This document shows positions 30,931-59,123 of a DNA stretch of 64,000 bases, piece by piece; the first letter of the stretch is position 1, and each line of letters starts with the position of its first letter. This stretch comes from Panorpa germanica (Eukaryota > Arthropoda > Insecta > Mecoptera > Panorpidae). Under the pieces are notes generated by a model that saw only the letters and a list, made by a program, of their open reading frames with translations, did not search any database and was not told where the DNA came from. The DNA lies in assembly GCA_963678705.1 (NCBI GenBank), contig OY783203.1:21186535-21250534 (forward strand), read 5' to 3'. The position numbers and the translations under genes were made by a program.

Positions 30931-31230
30931 ATTGTTTCCGCAATTATACTAATTTATGTTAATATTTTTTTAGAACAACATCTTTTTTTGAACGAGAGGG
31001 AATTTTGAAAAGGAGAAGTAAAGAGCTGAAGCAGTTAGATAGCAGTCTGTTCAATCAGAGAGACTACCTTCCTGTTACAACTGCGGTGTCTGAGCCCCAT
31101 CGGAAATTTCCTGTGAGTTACTGTTTTCGCTAACAATTTTTCCTTGTCAGAATCCTATTTTTCGGAGAGTCGTTTATTGGTACAAAATAATCTTTAGTCT
31201 GTATATTATATATAACTTTAATTAAGTACA

Positions 31231-33729
31231 ATGGCACCGAACGTTCATTCCCTCACATTAGTTGAGAATACAATCAATCTAATCAATGAGTTTTCAAAAA
31301 ATTTAGAAGTCCAATCAACATCCTTAACAATAGTTGAATTAAAAATCAAAAACTTAGATAAAGCTTGGGTTAAATATAGTAGTATCGTAGAAGCACTGCT
31401 TCCAATTCTAAAAAATGAAGAAGCTACGGCTATCGTTAGTAAGTCTATGGAAGTTGAAAGTATTTATGACGACACTCTTATTTACTTGTTGAATTATAAG
31501 CAAACATTTGAGAATGATACACATATTGTAGACGACTCAAAAAGCATAGATTCAATAAAAAATCTGAACTTAAGTCCAATGCAACTAACCGTTTTTGATG
31601 GAGAATATACTAATTGGCAAAGTTTCATGGAATTATTTACAAATTTAATTCGTAATAATAGCAAACTATCAAACATTGAAAAAATGCATTATTTAAAATT
31701 AAATTTGACAGGAGAACCACTCAAACTCATAAAGAATTATCCTTTAACAAACGATAATTATGAAATTGTTTGGAACATCCTTTGTAAACGTTATGATAAC
31801 AAGGTAGCACTTATTGAAACCTATTTAAACAATTTGATAAACTACAATGTTATACGTTTAGAATCAGAAACTAATATCAAAAATTTTTTAGACGAAATTA
31901 ATGAATCGATTAGAGCATTAACCGAGTTGGGAATATATTCTAATCATTCAGATTTTATTTTTATACATTTTTTAAAGACCAAGTTAGATTTTAACACATT
32001 AAAGGAATGGGAAAACAGAAATACTTCTGAATTACCAACCCTAAATGATTTTACGAATTTTCTTGAAACACGGTGGCGCACTCTAGAAAGAAGAAGGCAT
32101 GTTGAATTTAAAACAGATTCAAGTCATTCTATTTCTAGTAGTGAACCAGTTTCAAGTGAACAATTTGCTAACGAAGTCGAAACAAAATTTAAAACTTTTT
32201 TTTGTAACTATTGTAAAAAAAATGGTCATTTAGAGAAATATTGTTTTATCAAGAAGGAAAATGCGGATACGGTATATCCTGTCGCGCAAATTAATATTTG
32301 TAGGAGAGATACGGTATTTTCAAAACCTTCTGTTTATTGTAAAAGATCGAGACATCTTGAATCTGATGGTCCTCAAGTATCTTTTACTAAAAATACAAAA
32401 CAAAATTCACGTTCTTTTTATAATCACCATTTACGTAAATTTAATAGTTTAAATAAAAATATTGAGATTAAAGAAATACAAAATACCAATGATATAACAA
32501 ATTTTAACTGTAACAATGAAAATGTTATTGACAAGCAAACAGCTGACACTGTTCAATTCAGAATAGTCGCAGCCAAAGCAAAGACTGTATCATTTTTATT
32601 GGACACTGGTTCTCAAATTTCTTTAATTAAACAAAATATTTTAAAAAATAATATCAAAATAGATAGTACATCTAAAGTGTTATTAAAGGGAATCTCTGAA
32701 GGCACGCCTTATACTTTAGGTTCACTAAAAACTTCTATAATTTTAGATAGTTCTAGGTCGAAACAAACCTTTCAGGTTGTGTCAGAGGACTTTCCCATTC
32801 AGCAAGATGGAATCATAGGATTAGATATTTTACGTACATTTAAAGCAGTAATTAATTTGGAAACAAACAGCGTACAATTCTCACAACATGGCAAAATGTT
32901 TGAATTACCATTATTGAACATAAACAGTATTATCATAGTTCCAGCACGTACTAGGAAATTAATTCCTATGTCGGGTTCTACGGTAGGAGTTTGTGTAGCC
33001 AAGGAATTGCTACCTGAAGTTTTTTTAGCCAACGCATTAATTAATCCTGTTAATAATACTTTTTATATATCAATAACTAATTCCTCAGCAAAAGATGTAA
33101 TACTTAACAATTTTAAACCAGATATTATTCCAATAAATAAATTTAATTTTTACCATTTTTTGAAAAGAAATCCTAACGATCCTAAAAGATCCTTACGACA
33201 TCTTTTATTTAATAATATAGACTTTTCAAATGTTAATTCAAAATACTTAACAGATTTAATGGAAATCTGTAATAATTTTAATAACATATTTTTTTTCCCG
33301 GTAGATAAGTTATCTTGTGCGAGTGCACTGAGTGACTCACCTAACCCTGTAAACATTAAGCCGCATAGATTATCTCATGCGCATAAAGAAATTGTTGAGA
33401 AGCATATCCAAGAACTGTTGGCTAACAACATTATTGAAAAATGCGACTCACAGTTTAACGCACCTCTGTTAATGGTACCTAAAAAAGCAGATGTGTCGGG
33501 GAACAAACAATTTTGCGTTGTAATCGACTATCGTAAACTTAATGAACAGACGACAAGTGATGTTTATACTTTGCCTCTCGTACATGACATACTAGACCAA
33601 TTTAGTGGTGCAAAATATTCTTCTACGATTGATTTAGCTACAAATAAATTTACTAGTAATAAACCAAAATTTAAATTAAATTTTGATAGAAGGGTCAATT
33701 CTTTTTTTCACCTAGAAAGTATACGGTAG
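31231..33729 (+). CDS. Gag-Pol fusion, truncated in reverse transcriptase
   Basis: The 832-residue frame starts ATGGCACCGAACG at 31231. Residues about 105-260 form a Gag region (FDGEYTNWQSFMELFTNLIR, KMHYLKLNLTGEPLKLI) that resembles DUF1759, the domain of BEL/Pao Gag proteins. A CCHC zinc knuckle follows at 325-338 (CNYCKKNGHLEKYC). A retropepsin with active-site LLDTGS at 456-461 and IIGLDIL near 528 comes next. From about 708 a Ty3/gypsy-type RT begins: HIQELLANNIIEKC, VIDYRKLNEQTTSDVYTLPL, STIDLA with the first catalytic aspartate at 801. Immediately after, a deletion joins unrelated codons and the frame stops. The YxDD box, RNase H and most of integrase are gone. Gag, and perhaps protease, could still be made, and could help or be helped by complete relatives. 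Confidence 0.85.
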   Translation: MAPNVHSLTLVENTINLINEFSKNLEVQSTSLTIVELKIKNLDKAWVKYSSIVEALLPILKNEEATAIVSKSMEVESIYDDTLIYLLNYKQTFENDTHIVDDSKSIDSIKNLNLSPMQLTVFDGEYTNWQSFMELFTNLIRNNSKLSNIEKMHYLKLNLTGEPLKLIKNYPLTNDNYEIVWNILCKRYDNKVALIETYLNNLINYNVIRLESETNIKNFLDEINESIRALTELGIYSNHSDFIFIHFLKTKLDFNTLKEWENRNTSELPTLNDFTNFLETRWRTLERRRHVEFKTDSSHSISSSEPVSSEQFANEVETKFKTFFCNYCKKNGHLEKYCFIKKENADTVYPVAQINICRRDTVFSKPSVYCKRSRHLESDGPQVSFTKNTKQNSRSFYNHHLRKFNSLNKNIEIKEIQNTNDITNFNCNNENVIDKQTADTVQFRIVAAKAKTVSFLLDTGSQISLIKQNILKNNIKIDSTSKVLLKGISEGTPYTLGSLKTSIILDSSRSKQTFQVVSEDFPIQQDGIIGLDILRTFKAVINLETNSVQFSQHGKMFELPLLNINSIIIVPARTRKLIPMSGSTVGVCVAKELLPEVFLANALINPVNNTFYISITNSSAKDVILNNFKPDIIPINKFNFYHFLKRNPNDPKRSLRHLLFNNIDFSNVNSKYLTDLMEICNNFNNIFFFPVDKLSCASALSDSPNPVNIKPHRLSHAHKEIVEKHIQELLANNIIEKCDSQFNAPLLMVPKKADVSGNKQFCVVIDYRKLNEQTTSDVYTLPLVHDILDQFSGAKYSSTIDLATNKFTSNKPKFKLNFDRRVNSFFHLESIR

Positions 33730-35890: not shown

Positions 35891-38334
35891 TATCAATATA
35901 TACTTTCTCATGTCACAAACTGAATCAGCTTGGACTCTTTAAAAGGTGTAAACACTTATTCTGACTTGATATTCACATTGATTAAAGAATGTGTTAAATA
36001 TTGTGCCAAAATAAACCTTTAAGAATACCGGTTATGAAATTCATTAGTTAATTATATCTAAAGTAATATTAGATGCTGACAGTAAACTTGTTTGACGTCA
36101 TAGATTGCCAACCTCTGTCAAATGGTCTATAAGGAATACATGGTGCCAAAGGCTGGTAACTGCTTTAATAAGATTTGATTCAGTAGTAAGGGATGGCAGT
36201 AACGGGGTGGCAGAATTATGGTAGCGGTAGGGATAATGAGCGGCGAAACGAGCAGGGGAAAACATGTGGGGGTTTAAATTAAAACTTTTAAATATTTAGT
36301 TTTATCATTTTAGTTAAAGTATCTAAATACATAATTTGTATTTAGTGTGATAACATGCGAAGTTTTTAAAGTTTATACAATCTCATTTATAGAACTCGTT
36401 TAGGTTTGGGAATCCTAATTAACTTTGTGTGTACCATATTATTACTGCTGTTTCTCTAAAATTAAAAAATATTTGACTTAAAATGATAAAAATGTAAGTA
36501 TGCCATGTGGGAATATTCTTAGACATTCCTTGCACATTTTTCTTACAAGACCTTACAAGGTCCAATGTTTCCAAATTAAAAAAAAACTGTATTATATTAT
36601 AACCTCCAAAATGTGACAATGTGTCAAAATGCAGTAGGATTTATTTTTAAAAGAAATCCAATGTAAGCTTGTCAAAAATAACGAACAATTTCTAATTATT
36701 TCACATTCAATTTTGTCCAACTGTCGAACTGTCAAAGTTTGTATTACTAACAATGCATCCGCACCAACTAAATTAACTAAACTCATATTAAAACACGAAT
36801 ATGACAAGGAATGCCTATTCTGAAACCCTGATATTTAGATTGAAATAAATCAAGAAAAACTTAAATTAAATATCAAAACAGTTAGTGGAAATGAGGCTTA
36901 ATGCATTAGAAGAAATATGATTGTGTTGCCAACAAATACATACAGAGAATAATACATTTATTTTATTTCAGAGTATACATTTGGGTATAACGTATACTAG
37001 AAGTATAACTATACAACTCACAATACAATATATTTACAATGGTACATGTCTGTCAGCTTCAATTGGGCTCCCCTGCTAGGGCTAACAGGCTAGTTGCACA
37101 AGTCACATCACAACTAACATTACAGACGTCTATTTGAAATTGTTTCTATTATTACAATATCTATTTCTCGACAAGTTGTTCCTTTGATTCCCATTGCGTC
37201 CACTTTAACTTTAGTTTCAATTGTCAACATTAATTTAATCCAAGTCTGTGAGTAAACTAGCTATATGTACATTGTACAAGCTATAAGCTACAAGCTACAG
37301 CTACAATACGAGTAGAGTAGTGCAGTAGTACACGTACGGTGAAAGTGTGAAAATGCTTAAAATAACGCAGCACACAATACGGGTTCTGCTTGACTTATTT
37401 ACTTACTTACTTTAAATACAGAGTTTTTCACTAAGATCACAATAACTTAAAATGAAAATAGAACAATTTGAATTTTTGCTATGAAATGTTGAATGGTTTC
37501 CTAAAACCCCACTTATTTTTCGCCCTAGAGTCTGCCGGCTACCAGAAATATCATGACTACTATCTGATTCCTCTCCCATAACTTAATATACAGTAATTTC
37601 ATTCATTAGCTCAAACCAAACCCTTGGACTTTGTAGCCTCTCACAGCACATCGTATTTTGATATTATCTTTTTGATCAGTAGAAATTTTGCCCTAAATGC
37701 ATGATGCCCCTATTAGGAGTTATTAGGGCTTACCCGACAGCTCCTAATCGGGTACTATATATAGGTAATCGGACTACCTATTATTTTCGAAGTTATGTAA
37801 GTTGACCAAGATTTGTCAGAAACGGCTGAACCGATCAGTGTCAAATTTTAACACAAGCTTCTTAAGTATATTTTTTAGTAATTAGTCGTAGGTTTTTTTT
37901 CACCGATAAGTATTTTTTTATAAACAATTTAAGACCAAAATTTTGGTCAAAAATCGATTTTCTTTTTTGAGAAGCCGTCATTTTGTCAAAAAAAATTTCT
38001 TGCTTTTTTCTTTGATTAATTACTAAATTATACTGTACTTTAACGAAATCTGTTTGGTTTTTTCATTTTAGATGATTCGGTACAGAGATATCGTGGTCAC
38101 CGCAAGGTGTTTTTTTTTGAGAGGAGCTCCTGGAGATCAGCTATATCAGCTTTAAAATTATTATTTTTACAAATACAGTTAAAAGTTACTATAATATGTG
38201 CACAAATTTTGACATTAATATATTTAAAAGTCTGCTCAAGAAAAATTCTTAAAAAATTGATTTTTTTGGGCCTAATAACTGTATATAACCCCTTAAGGAA
38301 ATATGAGACCCTGATCGGTTAGATTTGAGTTTAG
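35891..38334. other. Non-coding; includes unassigned AT-rich repeat-like DNA
   Basis: No gene recognised. The segment 37775-38329 has the style of dispersed transposon DNA (ACGGCTGAACCGATCAGTGT, TTTTCATTTTAGATGATTCG) but no second copy was identified. TTTAG at 38330-38334 is the left flank duplicate of the P-type element. Confidence 0.4.
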
Positions 38335-38371
38335 CCAACACCTCCTAAATATACAAAGCCTAACAGCGATT
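38335..38371 (+). repeat. Left terminal inverted repeat of P-type element
   Basis: 37 bp starting CCAACACCTCC; pairs with 42328-42364. The TGTGACGTCATC subterminal repeat follows 12 bases farther in. Confidence 0.85.
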
Positions 38372-38724
38372 CAGTCAATGGTATGTGACGTCATCACTTG
38401 TAGTCATATGCTGCTGAGTTCTGCTATCGGTATAAGACAGTTTGTTTGAAAATGTTAGTATCATATAGGGTATTGAACAAAGTTTCTGGTTACAAATTAT
38501 TAAGGACTATCATTTTTAAATTATTAATTAGTTTGCAATTAATGAATTGTTTGTTTATGAATTGGTTTTTGTAAGGGTTTTATAATGAGTAATTAAAGAA
38601 GTAAAATACATCGAAAATTTAATTTTAAACTAAGTAACATTTCTAAATCGTAACATTTCTACAAAAATTAAAATAAATAGACTAGTAACACACATATGCA
38701 AAAAAGGAAAATGGTATACCTTCC

Positions 38725-38726
<2 letters not shown>

Positions 38727-38807
<81 letters not shown>
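38727..38807. repeat. (TA)n microsatellite within the P-type element
   Basis: About 80 bases of TA dinucleotides beyond the transposase 3' end. Confidence 0.95.
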
Positions 38808-38812
<5 letters not shown>

Positions 38813-38853
38813 AAAATAATAATAATAAAAATGTATTATATAAAAATATTAAC

Positions 38854-38859
38854 TTTATT
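38854..38859 (-). terminator. Candidate polyadenylation signal of the P-type transposase gene
   Basis: AATAAA on the minus strand about 70 bases after the TAA stop of the transposase. Confidence 0.5.
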
Positions 38860-38925
38860 TTTCATATATTTCTTTTAACAATATACGAGTGTATACAATA
38901 ACAATACTTATATTTAGAACCATAT

Positions 38926-41860
38926 TTATGTAGTTAGAGTTTGCAATTTTCTTTTCTTATACTGTTTATTATGTTGCAAGTCGTCATTTTTACGAGATGA
39001 TAAATTATTTAACATAATATTAGTTGAAACATGAATTAATAACTTGCATATATAATAGTTGTTATGACACTCGAGATCAAGAAGGTCTTCTAACAGCATT
39101 TCTTTAACTTCTAAAGTTTTGCATGTAACATCTATTATATATTTTCTCTGATTTTGGAGAGAGAAAAAATCTATATCACGAGACAACTTTTCAACTATTA
39201 AATAATTGTACATAACTAAATTGACTACAGAAGGTGTCGGACAAATCAGGCCTCCACGATCAAGATTTTTTATTAAATTGTATGACTGGTGTAAAGAAAT
39301 TGTCTTATCAATTGTTAAGATTTCTTTACACTTGCTACACTTAATTTTTTTTAAAACAGCATGACAACAATACCCCGCTAAATATGTAATTACAGGTAAT
39401 AATTCTTCTACATTGGCTATATCCATTTCGCTAATTACTACCGATTGCAATGGTGTCATTGCTTCATTAGTATCTTCAATATTATCTAGAATATTTTCTG
39501 GACATTGTAATGTTTGCACTGTCATTGCTCTATCTTTAATTATTAGTTCTAGTTTTAAATTTGATTGAAGACGTAATTTTTTTTCACACTCTAGAACTTG
39601 TCTCATGGAGATGTGATATTGAGACCCAGCTAATTGCCTATATTTGCCAAATCTATCTTCAAGTAAATCTGTTTGAATTTTACCTGGTAATATATAAGTA
39701 AATTTTAGTTCGTCTATGCAATAACGACACAATTCTAACTTTCCGTATGTAGTTTGTCTTAACGCATCGTGCGTTTGATTAGTAAAGCAACCACTGGAAA
39801 AATTCATTTGTTGCCACGCGTCGAGCCAGTCAATAAATTTGTTTAAAAATATAAATTTCTGATCTGATTTGTCCTTTGTTAAAGGTGTCATGTAAATGTT
39901 ACTTTTGTGTAAACCTTTGTATACAGTTTTAACGTTCATAACATCCCACCATTTGCAAATGATTGAAATAAAAATTGACGTATCATTATAATACTCAATA
40001 TTATGCAGACGTCCTTTTTCATTCAAACCTTGAACTACAAATTGGTTGAAAATTTTCAACACTAATTTCACATTTTGGCGCTCAAGATTTGAAGGTGCAA
40101 TGCTCTTAAATGTTAACCCGTGTGCATAAGAAATGATTGCAGTATTTTCTATTTCATATAACTTTTTAAGAGCAGAAAATGATGCAGTTCTACAATTATC
40201 ACCTTTTTCAAAATCTGGAAAAAACATACACTGTCCAATATTTTTTTGATTTAACCAGTTATTTCTAATGTTTTTAAGAAGATGAACCGAATCAATTAAA
40301 TAGAAGAGTGGCCTATTAGCATCCTGGGGATGCTGATAAAGAAAAGATGTTTTATTAGGAACAGCGAAACAACTCATAGCTTTTCTATTTATTGCATTGT
40401 TATCTGTAACAACACAAATGACTTTGAATCCCGCCTTTTCTAACCCTAATATAAGCTTTTTTATCAAATTGTATAAAGTTACATAATTTATTGTTTTAAT
40501 TGGTACAATATGAACAACATCTTTAAATTGTGATAATAAACTGGAAACCATAAAAACAAAGGCACTTGTAGCCGCAGTATTTGAATCAAACGATGCACCA
40601 ACAATAGATCCTCCCTTATAGTCAAAAAATGGTTTAATGTGTATCTCATCAATCATTAGTATAACTGTTTTTTCAAAATCTTGAAGATAGCTTACTCTAT
40701 TACTAGCGTACATCAAAAAATTTTTATCATTAGTTTCTAACTGCGGATTTACATGTAAATCATTGCATACTTTCTTCAATGTGTTAGGATGCGGAAATAT
40801 AAAATATCCACTTTGTCTTAAGAACTTGTAGGCATGTGGTGAAATTGTATTTAATAAAGAAGCAAATACTAATAACTCAGGGGAATATCTAAAATTATTT
40901 GTAGGACATATGCACAATTCTATTTGCCCCCTTAAGAAATGTAAAATATTTTCATTCTTGTTGGTTACAACGTCCTTTAACAATTCATCGATTAAATGAA
41001 ATGTAGCACTTCTTTTGCATGTCTTACTGTCTGCCTTGATTAAAACAATGGTTTCTAAAATATCAGTAATCTCATTGTAGCTAGTTATTTTCTGTGGTAA
41101 TAATTTTGGGCCTATTTTCTTAATTAATGTACTCTTTATAAAGACCGATAATGCCAAATGTTTATCTATTGTAATAGAATATTGAATTAAGGGTTCAGGT
41201 TCAACAGTTAAATAAAAAATGCAAATAAGCTCTTTATCTGGCAAATACTGATGTGACCATCTCTCAGAAACACCGTATTTTCTAATACAATCCAGAAGGT
41301 TGTTTATATTATTAATTCTACGATCGGTATTATAGGCATTTGCTGAATTTATACTGTTTATGATCGCTGAATTCAATAATCTATTTTCTCTTTCTTCGGC
41401 TTTTGAATCGGGAGATACTCTATTTGTTGAAGGGCCCGGCGAGGTGTTGCTTGAGGAGCAATATGCAACACTTTTGGGGTAATTTGAAAATACAGAAGGA
41501 ATAGTTCCTTTCTTTAGTCTTTTGACTTTAAGAGTTGCTGAAACTAGAACACCAGTTTTGTTGTCATACGCTTTCGATTCTGTTTCAATATCGTCACTTT
41601 TGAAATGGAGTTCGCAGACCTGTAAATAGTTTAATATAATAGTCTTGTGATGGTCGGTATGTTTGTCTAATTAATCTTTCACGCATACGTTCTCATTATC
41701 TACTTACTTTGGATTTATTCGACGGAACAAACGCCTTTCGCTGAATAGCAGAACACCATTTCTTTTTTAAGCATTCGTCTTTAGGGAAGCCAAATACAGA
41801 TACTTTTGGACCCGTAGGATAGTTGCCCTTACAAAGTGGAACGCAGCATCTACTTGGCAT
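38926..41860 (-). CDS. THAP-domain P-element-type transposase, two exons
   Basis: The predicted gene joins exon 1 (41860-41708) and exon 2 (41619-38926) across an 88-bp intron with GTAAGT donor and TTTACAG acceptor, in phase 0, giving about 948 residues. The ATG at 41860 starts MPSRCCVPLC, the first half of a THAP zinc finger, followed by VFGFPKDE and a conserved W at 36. Exon 2 supplies the CxxH half (VCELHF, 53-56) and a YPKSV tail, so splicing completes the C2CH finger. A linker and a P-type core follow: FLRGQIELC, SPHAYKFLRQSG, MIDEIHIKPF (D375), VVTDNNAINRKA (D457), LIDSVHLLKNIRNNW (D494), and LLEDRFGKYRQLAGSQYH (E705). These match the DDE and insertion regions of P transposase/THAP9, which bind element ends and cut and join DNA in the nucleus. 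Length is in the range of THAP9 (about 900) and above Drosophila P (751). No stop or shift is seen. The position of the catalytic residues is inferred by motif order. Confidence 0.88.
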
Positions 41861-42327
41861 TTTGTTGTCTAATAATTTACACTTTAAGAAGTCACTCACT
41901 CGACAAACTGGTTATTAATTGTGGAATATTATAATTAGTTTTATATATTACACAGTTAGCTAAAATTCTACACACGTAATGATCAGTAAAACATTTACAG
42001 CACATACACCATACAAGGTTTTCATACACAACACTAATTTTTAGATTAAAACAGTTTAATGTTTAAACCAAATATAAACAAAAAAAAAACACAAACACAG
42101 TTACTATAAATACACCCTCTTAAGACTGATTATTTATATTTTTAATTAATTATATATTTTATACGATTTTTTTAACCGAAATAACATGGAAGTAAATACA
42201 ATACGTAATGCACAGAGAGATTCTAAATTGTACTAAATCAATACCCTTAAAGTACATTTCAAGTATATTTAGGTAGAATTGTGTAAAACATCTGGTGTTC
42301 AGATGACTACAAGTGATGACGTCACAA

Positions 42328-42364
42328 AATCGCAGTTAGGCCTTGTATATTTAGGAGGTGTTGG
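42328..42364 (-). repeat. Right terminal inverted repeat of P-type element
   Basis: Inverse of the left repeat with two mismatches. Here the subterminal repeat is separated by only one base, so the two ends differ in spacing. Confidence 0.85.
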
Positions 42365-42532
42365 TTTAGCCCCTTACTAGAGGATATCCGACAGAACCAT
42401 AGCAAGGCCAAACAAAGTTACATTCTTTATGAGGACGTGAGATTTGCCTGACAAGAACTTCATCTTGCAAAATCTAAGGAAAACTTTTGCTTCGATACAT
42501 CCAATATCGTCTATTAGAGTAGTCGCACCTTT

Positions 42533-57225: not shown

Positions 57226-58337
57226 AATAATATGCCACGTTACAATCTGTTACAATAAGTATGTATGCTAAAAATGAAAATTAACCTAGATAAGAAATAG
57301 TCGTCCAGTGACGGCTGTATCTATGAATGACAATTAAAAATGTTGTGGTAGCTTTAACACACTATATCTTTTTAGTCTTTTAAAGTCAGACGTATGTTTA
57401 TCTAGTAAATTCACAGCTAGATAGTTTGGATGATTGTTTAGTCACTGCTGATATCTTTCGCTGAATTTGTTAATTCCTTCTTTCACAGCTTTAATGCCGA
57501 AGCCATGGTAGATGAATTTGTTGCTTATGATCCATAATGGTTCTTACTGTTTTTGACTGAAATCTTTCTAGTATTACTATATGTTTTTTGTCTAAACACT
57601 AGATGCTCCCCAGAGTTCAATGCCGTAAGTCCAGACAGGTTTCAGTATCGTTTTATAAATCATTAGTTACGTTTTTCCGTGATGTGCTTTTTCCAGGTTA
57701 GGCACCGATCTAAATGCACGCTTAGATACTTAGGTATAATTTGTTCATTTAAATGTACAAGAGGACATGTGTTTCTACACAAGGTAAATGTAACATGAGT
57801 TAACTTCGTCTCGTTTGCTTTAATTCGCCACTTCATTAGCCAGTCTTGAATCTCGTCTATGTTAGCTTGTACTTGCTGTGATGCAACATCGGGACTTTCA
57901 TGCACAGCCAAAATTGTTGATTCATCTGCAAAAGTTGCTGTTGTTGTCTGGCTATTAGTGGGTAGGTCTGCAGTGTACAATGTAAACAATGTTCGGCCAA
58001 GAACACTGCCTTGTGGATCTCCAGCCATTATTGGGTAAAGATGAGTAGCTTCGTCTTAACCCTGAAAGATCTGTCTTGAAGGTAAGAATAAAGTATTCTG
58101 TAGAATGAATTTAACAACCCTACGCGATCCCATGCCCGAAGACGACCACCAACAAGATGGCTGGACGACATAGTAAAGGACATCAAAACTTTGAAACTAA
58201 AAAACTGGTAAAGAGTTGAGGCAGCTAAGACCTGCTGTAGGTATATTCTTAAGAAGAAGTATAATGAATGGGACAGTGTCTTTTATTTTATGAAGCAGTC
58301 CGGCGTGCCATACTTTGTCAAACGTTTTACTAGACTA
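57226..58337 (-). pseudogene. Jockey-type LINE reverse transcriptase, interrupted
   Basis: Reading down the minus strand: VKRLTKYGTPDCFIK (near 58330, a decayed FDKVWHAGLLHK), an inserted block, then LLNSFYRI near 58110, then MAGDPQGSVLGRTLFTLYTA at 58028, TATFADESTILAV and DWLMKWRIKANETKLTHVTF. After a short break come ILKPVWTYGIELWGAS near 57620 and the C-terminal HPNYLAVNLLDKHTSDFKRL near 57390. The order matches Jockey RT palm to C-terminus. The catalytic FADD pair reads FADE here. Stops, shifts and the insertion make it inactive. Confidence 0.8.
58131..58285 (+). pseudogene. LINE C-terminal fragment inserted in opposite orientation
   Basis: The plus strand encodes RRPPTRWLDDIVKDIKT, then a stop and RVEAAKTCCRYILKKKYNEW. 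RGRPPxRWxDDI followed by W…A is the common C-terminus of RTE-like and related LINE proteins. The 155 bp separate two parts of the minus-strand Jockey RT. No target duplication was found. Confidence 0.6.
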
Positions 58338-58352
58338 ACTGTTGTTATATTA

Positions 58353-59123
58353 TTTTTTTTTAATATTTATTTACTTATTTGCCTTGACTTTCTTTCGTCA
58401 TAGCCACCATCAAACATTTTTTATACATCTTTTATAATTTATAATTTAATTTTACAAATTTCTAAATATTTCAATAATTCACTAATTAATTTTGAATCAC
58501 TTAACAAAAATTTAGTATTAACAGGAAAAGTTTTAATCACATCTAATATATCACTATTCAATTTTGATCTTTCTAAACTATAATTTATGCATTCAAATAT
58601 AATATGATTCAAAGTTCCTTCTTCACCACATTGACATCTATCGTCAGATTTAATATTAATTTTGTACATGTGAGCTGGAGTTTTGCAATGATTACTTTTG
58701 ATTCTGATTATAGTTGATATAATTTTGCGGGTCTTATTTCTAAACCATCTCTTCTTACTTAAATTTGGATGTAACATATAATAATCTCTTCCTTTTAACT
58801 GACTTTGTTGTATGAAATCTGTGTTTCTCAAATTGAAGTTTAATTTTTTGATTATATTAAAAATTTCATATGAAGGTAATTTCACTTTCATCTCAATTTC
58901 TAAATTTATTGATTCCTTTGCCAATTTATCCGCAATTTCGTTTCCTTTTATTCCACAATGTTCTGGTATCCACATAAATTTTAAGGTATTATTCTTATTT
59001 ATTATATTGAAATACATCTCTTTAATTTTGCATGTCAAAATATCATTATTTGATTTGTTATCATTAGAATTTAAATTATTTTAAATTAAATTTAATTTTA
59101 ATTTAATTTACATTAAATTTAAA
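58353..59123 (-). mobile_element. 5'-truncated LINE insertion with target duplication
   Basis: On the minus strand the segment ends in an A-rich tail (TATTAAAAAAAAA near 58353-58365) and is flanked by a perfect 13-bp duplication, TGTTGTTATATTA (58340-58352 and 59124-59136). These are signs of target-primed reverse transcription. It carries the RNase H end of ORF2. The 5' end is a run of AAATTTAA-type low-complexity sequence. Confidence 0.85.
58439..59038 (-). CDS. LINE ORF2 C-terminus with RNase H motifs (5' truncated)
   Basis: The frame is open for 199 codons and continues upstream without a methionine (NDILTCKIKEMYF), so no real start is present. It includes LKFMWIPEHCGIKGNEIADK, the last part of an RNase H domain with the conserved H and GNExAD. 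Then come IIRIKSNHCKTPAHMYKI and CQCGEEGTLNHIIFEC, the C-terminal cysteine-rich segment of I/Jockey-group ORF2. The stop is followed by a short 3' untranslated part and A tail. The RT is lacking, so no activity is expected, but the frame shows no stops and the copy looks young. Confidence 0.75.
   Translation of the reverse strand: MTCKIKEMYFNIINKNNTLKFMWIPEHCGIKGNEIADKLAKESINLEIEMKVKLPSYEIFNIIKKLNFNLRNTDFIQQSQLKGRDYYMLHPNLSKKRWFRNKTRKIISTIIRIKSNHCKTPAHMYKINIKSDDRCQCGEEGTLNHIIFECINYSLERSKLNSDILDVIKTFPVNTKFLLSDSKLISELLKYLEICKIKL

Follow-up and report, generated by a model that had tools for sequence, protein, structure and literature searches.

An intact P-superfamily transposon with 7-bp target duplications, probably autonomous and very recently mobile, on the X chromosome of the scorpionfly Panorpa germanica

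The window analysed here, a stretch of 64,000 nucleotides from the scorpionfly Panorpa germanica (assembly GCA_963678705.1, contig OY783203.1), contains an element that is very probably an autonomous and very recently mobile cut-and-paste transposon of the P superfamily. The assembly of this species, ijPanGerm4.1, is described as comprising 20 autosomes and an X chromosome (PMC11464959; this and all other papers are cited from parts of their text), and the contig carrying the window (C21, 47,989,005 bp) can be taken with confidence as chromosome X. A genome search recovered 23 near-full-length copies of the element with 97–100% identity, and the spliced transposase frame is intact in 22 of the 23 aligned copies. 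A genome with only one decayed relative, an outcome considered in the earlier note on this DNA, is therefore not what was found. The parts of the window copy are as follows.

38336..42363, minus strand: complete P-superfamily element, 4,028 bp, with the transposase on the minus strand
38329..38335, no strand: left copy of the target-site duplication GTTTAGC, perfect over 7 bp
42364..42370, no strand: right copy of the target-site duplication GTTTAGC, perfect over 7 bp
38336..38371, plus strand: outer terminal inverted repeat at the transposase 3′ end, matching the opposite end at 34 of 36 bp
42328..42363, minus strand: outer terminal inverted repeat at the transposase 5′ end, 36 bp, partner of 38336..38371
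38385..38407, plus strand: inner 23-bp repeat, from position 50 at the 3′ end, candidate transposase binding site
42303..42325, minus strand: inner 23-bp repeat, from position 39 at the 5′ end, candidate transposase binding site
41708..41860, minus strand: exon 1, with the start codon and the first half of the THAP finger (C6, C10, P26, W35), from Pfam and the reading frame
41620..41707, minus strand: predicted 88-bp phase-0 intron (GT...AG), conserved in all 23 aligned copies
38926..41619, minus strand: exon 2, with the second half of the THAP finger (C53, H56, F57, P92), a helix-turn-helix (HTH) domain, the RNase H-type core and the C-terminus
38727..38808, no strand: internal (TA)n microsatellite, the chief source of length differences among copies

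The boundaries were set by comparison of copies, 27 of 30 loci having exact 7-bp duplications, and this comparison places the termini at CAACACC at the start and GGTGTTG at the finish. The span of 38335..42364 proposed in the earlier note stands for the element itself and fails at its outermost bases: since the duplication in the window reads GTTTAGC, positions 38335 and 42364 are part of that duplication, outside the element. The matched terminal and subterminal inverted repeats reported there were recovered as the outer pair listed above and an inner pair of 23 bp that is identical at both ends. A 21-base end probe gave 161 genome matches at two or fewer mismatches, compared with 0 for a reversed control.

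The two exons form a spliced frame of 948 amino acids followed by a stop codon, and the predicted intron runs from GTAAGT to TTTACAG. Without splicing, the frame meets two stops three residues past exon 1, so removal of the intron would be needed to unite the two halves of the THAP finger. The predicted gene agrees with the earlier description of two exons with a phase-0 intron splitting the finger, and the P-type core of "about 900 residues" corresponds to the 897 amino acids of exon 2. The Pfam THAP model matches exon 1 at 1.2e-7, and its remainder matches exon 2 at just 0.011, below the curated cut-off. All eight THAP positions, from C6 to P92, are present, and the same eight are listed for the transposase of Galileo (PMC4168063). 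Further matches were found to the RNase H N-terminal domain (PF21787, 1.4e-15) and the P-type HTH (PF12017, 3.6e-7), so that the protein carries the N-terminal THAP finger, P-type HTH and RNase H core (D375/D457/E705) that mark the P superfamily. When solved structures were searched with phmmer, the Drosophila P transposase (6p5a) was matched with an E-value of 9.2e-12, with 90 of 379 residues identical (24% over the aligned part). Residues 375, 457, 494, 610, 702 and 705 align with the identical D230, D303, D339, D444, D528 and E531 of P, among them the four acidic residues (375, 457, 494 and 705) proposed in the earlier note, while D252 of P has no conserved counterpart. The catalytic triad of P consists of D230, D303 and E531 (PMC7776569, PMC8230255). 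A single-sequence structure prediction of exon 2 was uninformative (mean predicted local distance difference test score, pLDDT, of 32).

The divergence of the copies bears out the earlier suggestion of a young element. Among 20 copies (190 pairs, with the microsatellite masked and L021, L022 and L023 set aside), the median divergence is 0.05% and the maximum 0.18%; with all 23 copies, the values are 0.08% and 0.77%. At a typical insect mutation rate, the age would be, roughly, about 130,000 generations. Outside the microsatellite, the 22 copies other than L023 differ from the majority sequence by a mean of 1.45 bases in about 3,900, and three of them differ by none. No difference separates L021 from L022 over 4,031 bases; the two lie on different chromosomes (C20 and C8) and are flanked by different target duplications. 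Five copies have 12-bp in-frame deletions, of which L011, L016, L018 and L020 share one near 39819 and L014 has a separate one near 39485, and L023 has a 231-bp insertion near 42291. Chromosome X makes up about a tenth of the genome and holds 7 of the 23 near-full-length copies (binomial p 0.007, tested post hoc).

When L023 is left aside, the remaining 22 copies show 2 silent changes and 12 replacements. Constraint is not detectable in these numbers, which fits the expectation for new copies that are not individually selected. Relative to the others, the older copy L023 shows 9 silent changes and 8 replacements, the latter being fewer than expected by chance (p 0.003), which suggests that the lineage has been under selection for a working protein. 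The pattern among the 22 copies would also suit a family that died recently or was silenced, for example by small RNAs, after a short burst, leaving copies that are intact yet inactive. This alternative, which is compatible with our reading in everything apart from present activity, is a serious one that we place not far short of even. It is opposed by the three copies that equal the majority sequence exactly and by the fully identical pair at different sites; because of these same copies, the last moves of the family must be placed very recently. We consider the family probably autonomous and very recently mobile, and we infer that it may be active today. That the transposase is instead a domesticated host gene is extremely improbable, a reading ruled out by the abundance of copies at unrelated sites, complete with their terminal repeats and duplications.

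Exact 7-bp direct repeats flank the element ends at 27 of the 30 loci, and at the other three (L015, L024 and L026) only one end was located. The 27 sites correspond to 26 independent ones, as L023 and L030 share a flanking repeat. The 8-bp duplication of the P element proper (PMC7776569, PMC3276498) was seen at none of the 27 measurable loci, all of which are exactly 7 bp. In genome orientation, the duplications tend towards the palindromic sequence G-Y-T-N-R-G-C/T. The preference extends into the flanks, with a G two bases ahead of the duplication at 25 of 27 sites and a C two bases past it at 24 of 27; both occur together at 22 of 27 sites, compared with a background of 2.7% in the flanks.

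Sites that look like excision scars were also found. A search for facing pairs of ends (10 bases each, at most 30 bases apart, with zero mismatches) returned three sites in the genome and none in the control. At each of them the 7-bp duplication is perfect and is accompanied by the G two bases before it and the C two bases after it. One site retains 20 and 21 bases of the ends and the other two retain 12 and 12, with 9–12 bases between them. The P transposase is described as cutting one strand 17 bases inside the end, and remnants of the ends are therefore expected after excision; the stagger may be a little longer here. L051 provides a further case, in which inner ends of about 19 bases lie next to a remnant outer end; its 7-bp duplication matches, and the base two positions ahead of it is T, not G. 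Abortive gap repair can also shrink elements, and the three sites might be extreme internal deletions of this origin, which would make them uninformative on the cutting stagger. Their small number genome-wide at zero mismatches would fit such an origin, as would the site that retains 20 and 21 bases, more than the 17 of Drosophila P. On the other hand, all three sites combine a complete 7-bp duplication with 12–21 bases per end, as a long-staggered cut predicts. We find gap repair plausible, if clearly the less probable of the two, and continue to read the sites as likely scars.

In the mechanism that these sequences suggest, the single intron would be spliced out to give the 948-residue transposase. 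The inner 23-bp repeats, which start unequally at 39 and 50 bp, are the probable binding sites of its THAP finger. The RNase H core (D375, D457, E705) would then make long-staggered cuts in the outer repeats, and the joining of the ends to a palindromic target would produce the 7-bp duplication.

Several observations weigh against an autonomous and recently mobile element. One of the 23 copies (L009) has a stop, five codons ahead of the normal one, and residue 678, an M in 22 copies, is a K in the window copy. The scar-like sites number only three in the entire genome. In addition, neither PF21788, the model of the GTP-binding insertion domain, nor PF21789, that of the C-terminal part of RNase H, was matched at E-values up to 10, in a search where the HMMER filters drop most weak matches. 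The region of the GTP-binding insertion does align to P in phmmer, weakly, and in this weak part of the alignment the NKSD of P (376–379) is placed opposite NTAI, and K385 of P opposite G. We take these positions of P to bear on GTP use. A working 7-bp P-superfamily transposase that lacks the GTP-binding signature of P and cuts about 20 bases inside its ends would be one reading of these alignments, though an unlikely one. If true, it would offer a test of what determines 7 versus 8 bp and of whether GTP is needed throughout the superfamily.

In 26 of 27 copies, the inner repeats, the candidate transposase binding sites, start at position 39 as counted from the transposase 5′ end and at position 50 as counted from its 3′ end; in L027 the positions are 38 and 48 (L029 and L030 being read in the opposite orientation). 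Drosophila P has the same polarity, with 9 bp (5′) and 21 bp (3′) from repeat to binding site, and the offset between the ends is similar (11 bp here, 12 bp in P). The unequal spacing of P has been compared with the 12/23 rule of V(D)J recombination (PMC7776569), and it recurs here in a distant element.

Some ends of the element are enlarged or found on their own. L021 and L022 carry an extra 67-bp 5′ end, and an internally deleted relative (G000:C4:10862939-10863925, in L054-L060) has seven tandem 141-bp copies of the left end with 99% matches, a small array built from the end of a transposon. The ends of Galileo are also described as enlarging by tandem repeats in some copies (PMC4168063). 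Solo ends are not all small derivatives: at 10 of the 11 compared loci (L033, L035, L036, L041-L044 and L048-L050, not L034), the left end of a relative is fused to another dispersed repeat. This repeat is not of P type and the copies are roughly 90–97% alike; an end fragment now seems to spread with it. Three end matches (G000:C6:18579562, 18596835 and 18614108) follow one another at intervals of exactly 17,273 bp, which suggests a large tandem duplication.

P-type sequences are abundant in this genome. The P-type RNase H model gave 150 scored matches from 241 candidates; about 36 of the 150 (hand count) fall at places of the window element's family and about 114 outside, so that P-type elements of other families must be common. 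The argument of the earlier note that an intact copy could be a young or active invader, since complete P elements are described in few lineages outside Diptera, is weak against these numbers. Literature searches on P elements in Mecoptera or Panorpa showed, among the results listed, no publication on such elements from Mecoptera, and a scan of viral contigs found no relative of the element. One of the other sequences, L065 (G000:C1:15729300-15731000), encodes a distinct P-type transposase, whose open frame of 566 residues matches all three P core models, including PF21788 (1.9e-14) and PF21789, unlike the transposase of the window. It has a G at the expected first catalytic Asp.

Elsewhere in the window, a Gag/protease-like retroelement frame (DUF1759, RVP) is found at 31222-33729 (plus strand), and an element resembling long interspersed nuclear elements (LINEs) is represented at 57663-59080 (minus strand) by fragments of reverse transcriptase and RNase H. 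An Rfam scan of the 64-kb window gave no match at gathering thresholds. The best match to COX1 in the assembly is on C249; 19 further COX1-like matches on other contigs are most likely nuclear copies of mitochondrial DNA.

With respect to known systems, the element is a new family of an already known P-superfamily type, the 7-bp style of Galileo and 1360, a likeness drawn from duplication length and target shape as compared with published descriptions. It shares with Drosophila P the RNase H core (D230/D303/E531 in P) and the THAP finger, and differs from it in the 7-bp rather than 8-bp duplication, the single intron, the low identity (24% over the aligned part) and the unmatched model of the GTP domain. 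The zebrafish Pdre2/THAP9 system likewise combines a THAP domain and a P-type transposase with terminal and subterminal repeats, whereas the 13-bp terminal repeats, 400-bp spacers and 8-bp duplication of Pdre2 (PMC7776569) are unlike those of the window element. 1360 (hoppel) has a modal 7-bp duplication at the target GTTNAAC, of the same palindromic shape as here, and many insertion sites among fly strains (PMC3276498); it is intronless according to a published title, in contrast to the single intron here. Galileo also makes 7-bp duplications at a palindromic target (GTATTAC/GTANTAC; PMC4168063), and its transposase of 905 (PMC4168063) or 912 amino acids (PMC3688188) is similar in size to the 948 amino acids found here. 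Its long repeats and intronless gene, described in D. buzzatii with repeats of 1.2 kb (PMC3688188), were not found in our element, which has 36-bp outer repeats and an 88-bp intron. In the accounts cited, no functional Galileo copy was found in D. willistoni (PMC4168063), none was known at all in 2014, and no transformants were obtained from embryos with a consensus Galileo transposase (PMC3688188), whereas 22 intact copies are present here. With its uniform copies, numerous intact transposase genes and 7-bp duplications, the scorpionfly family is a practical candidate for the biochemistry of 7-bp P-type elements.
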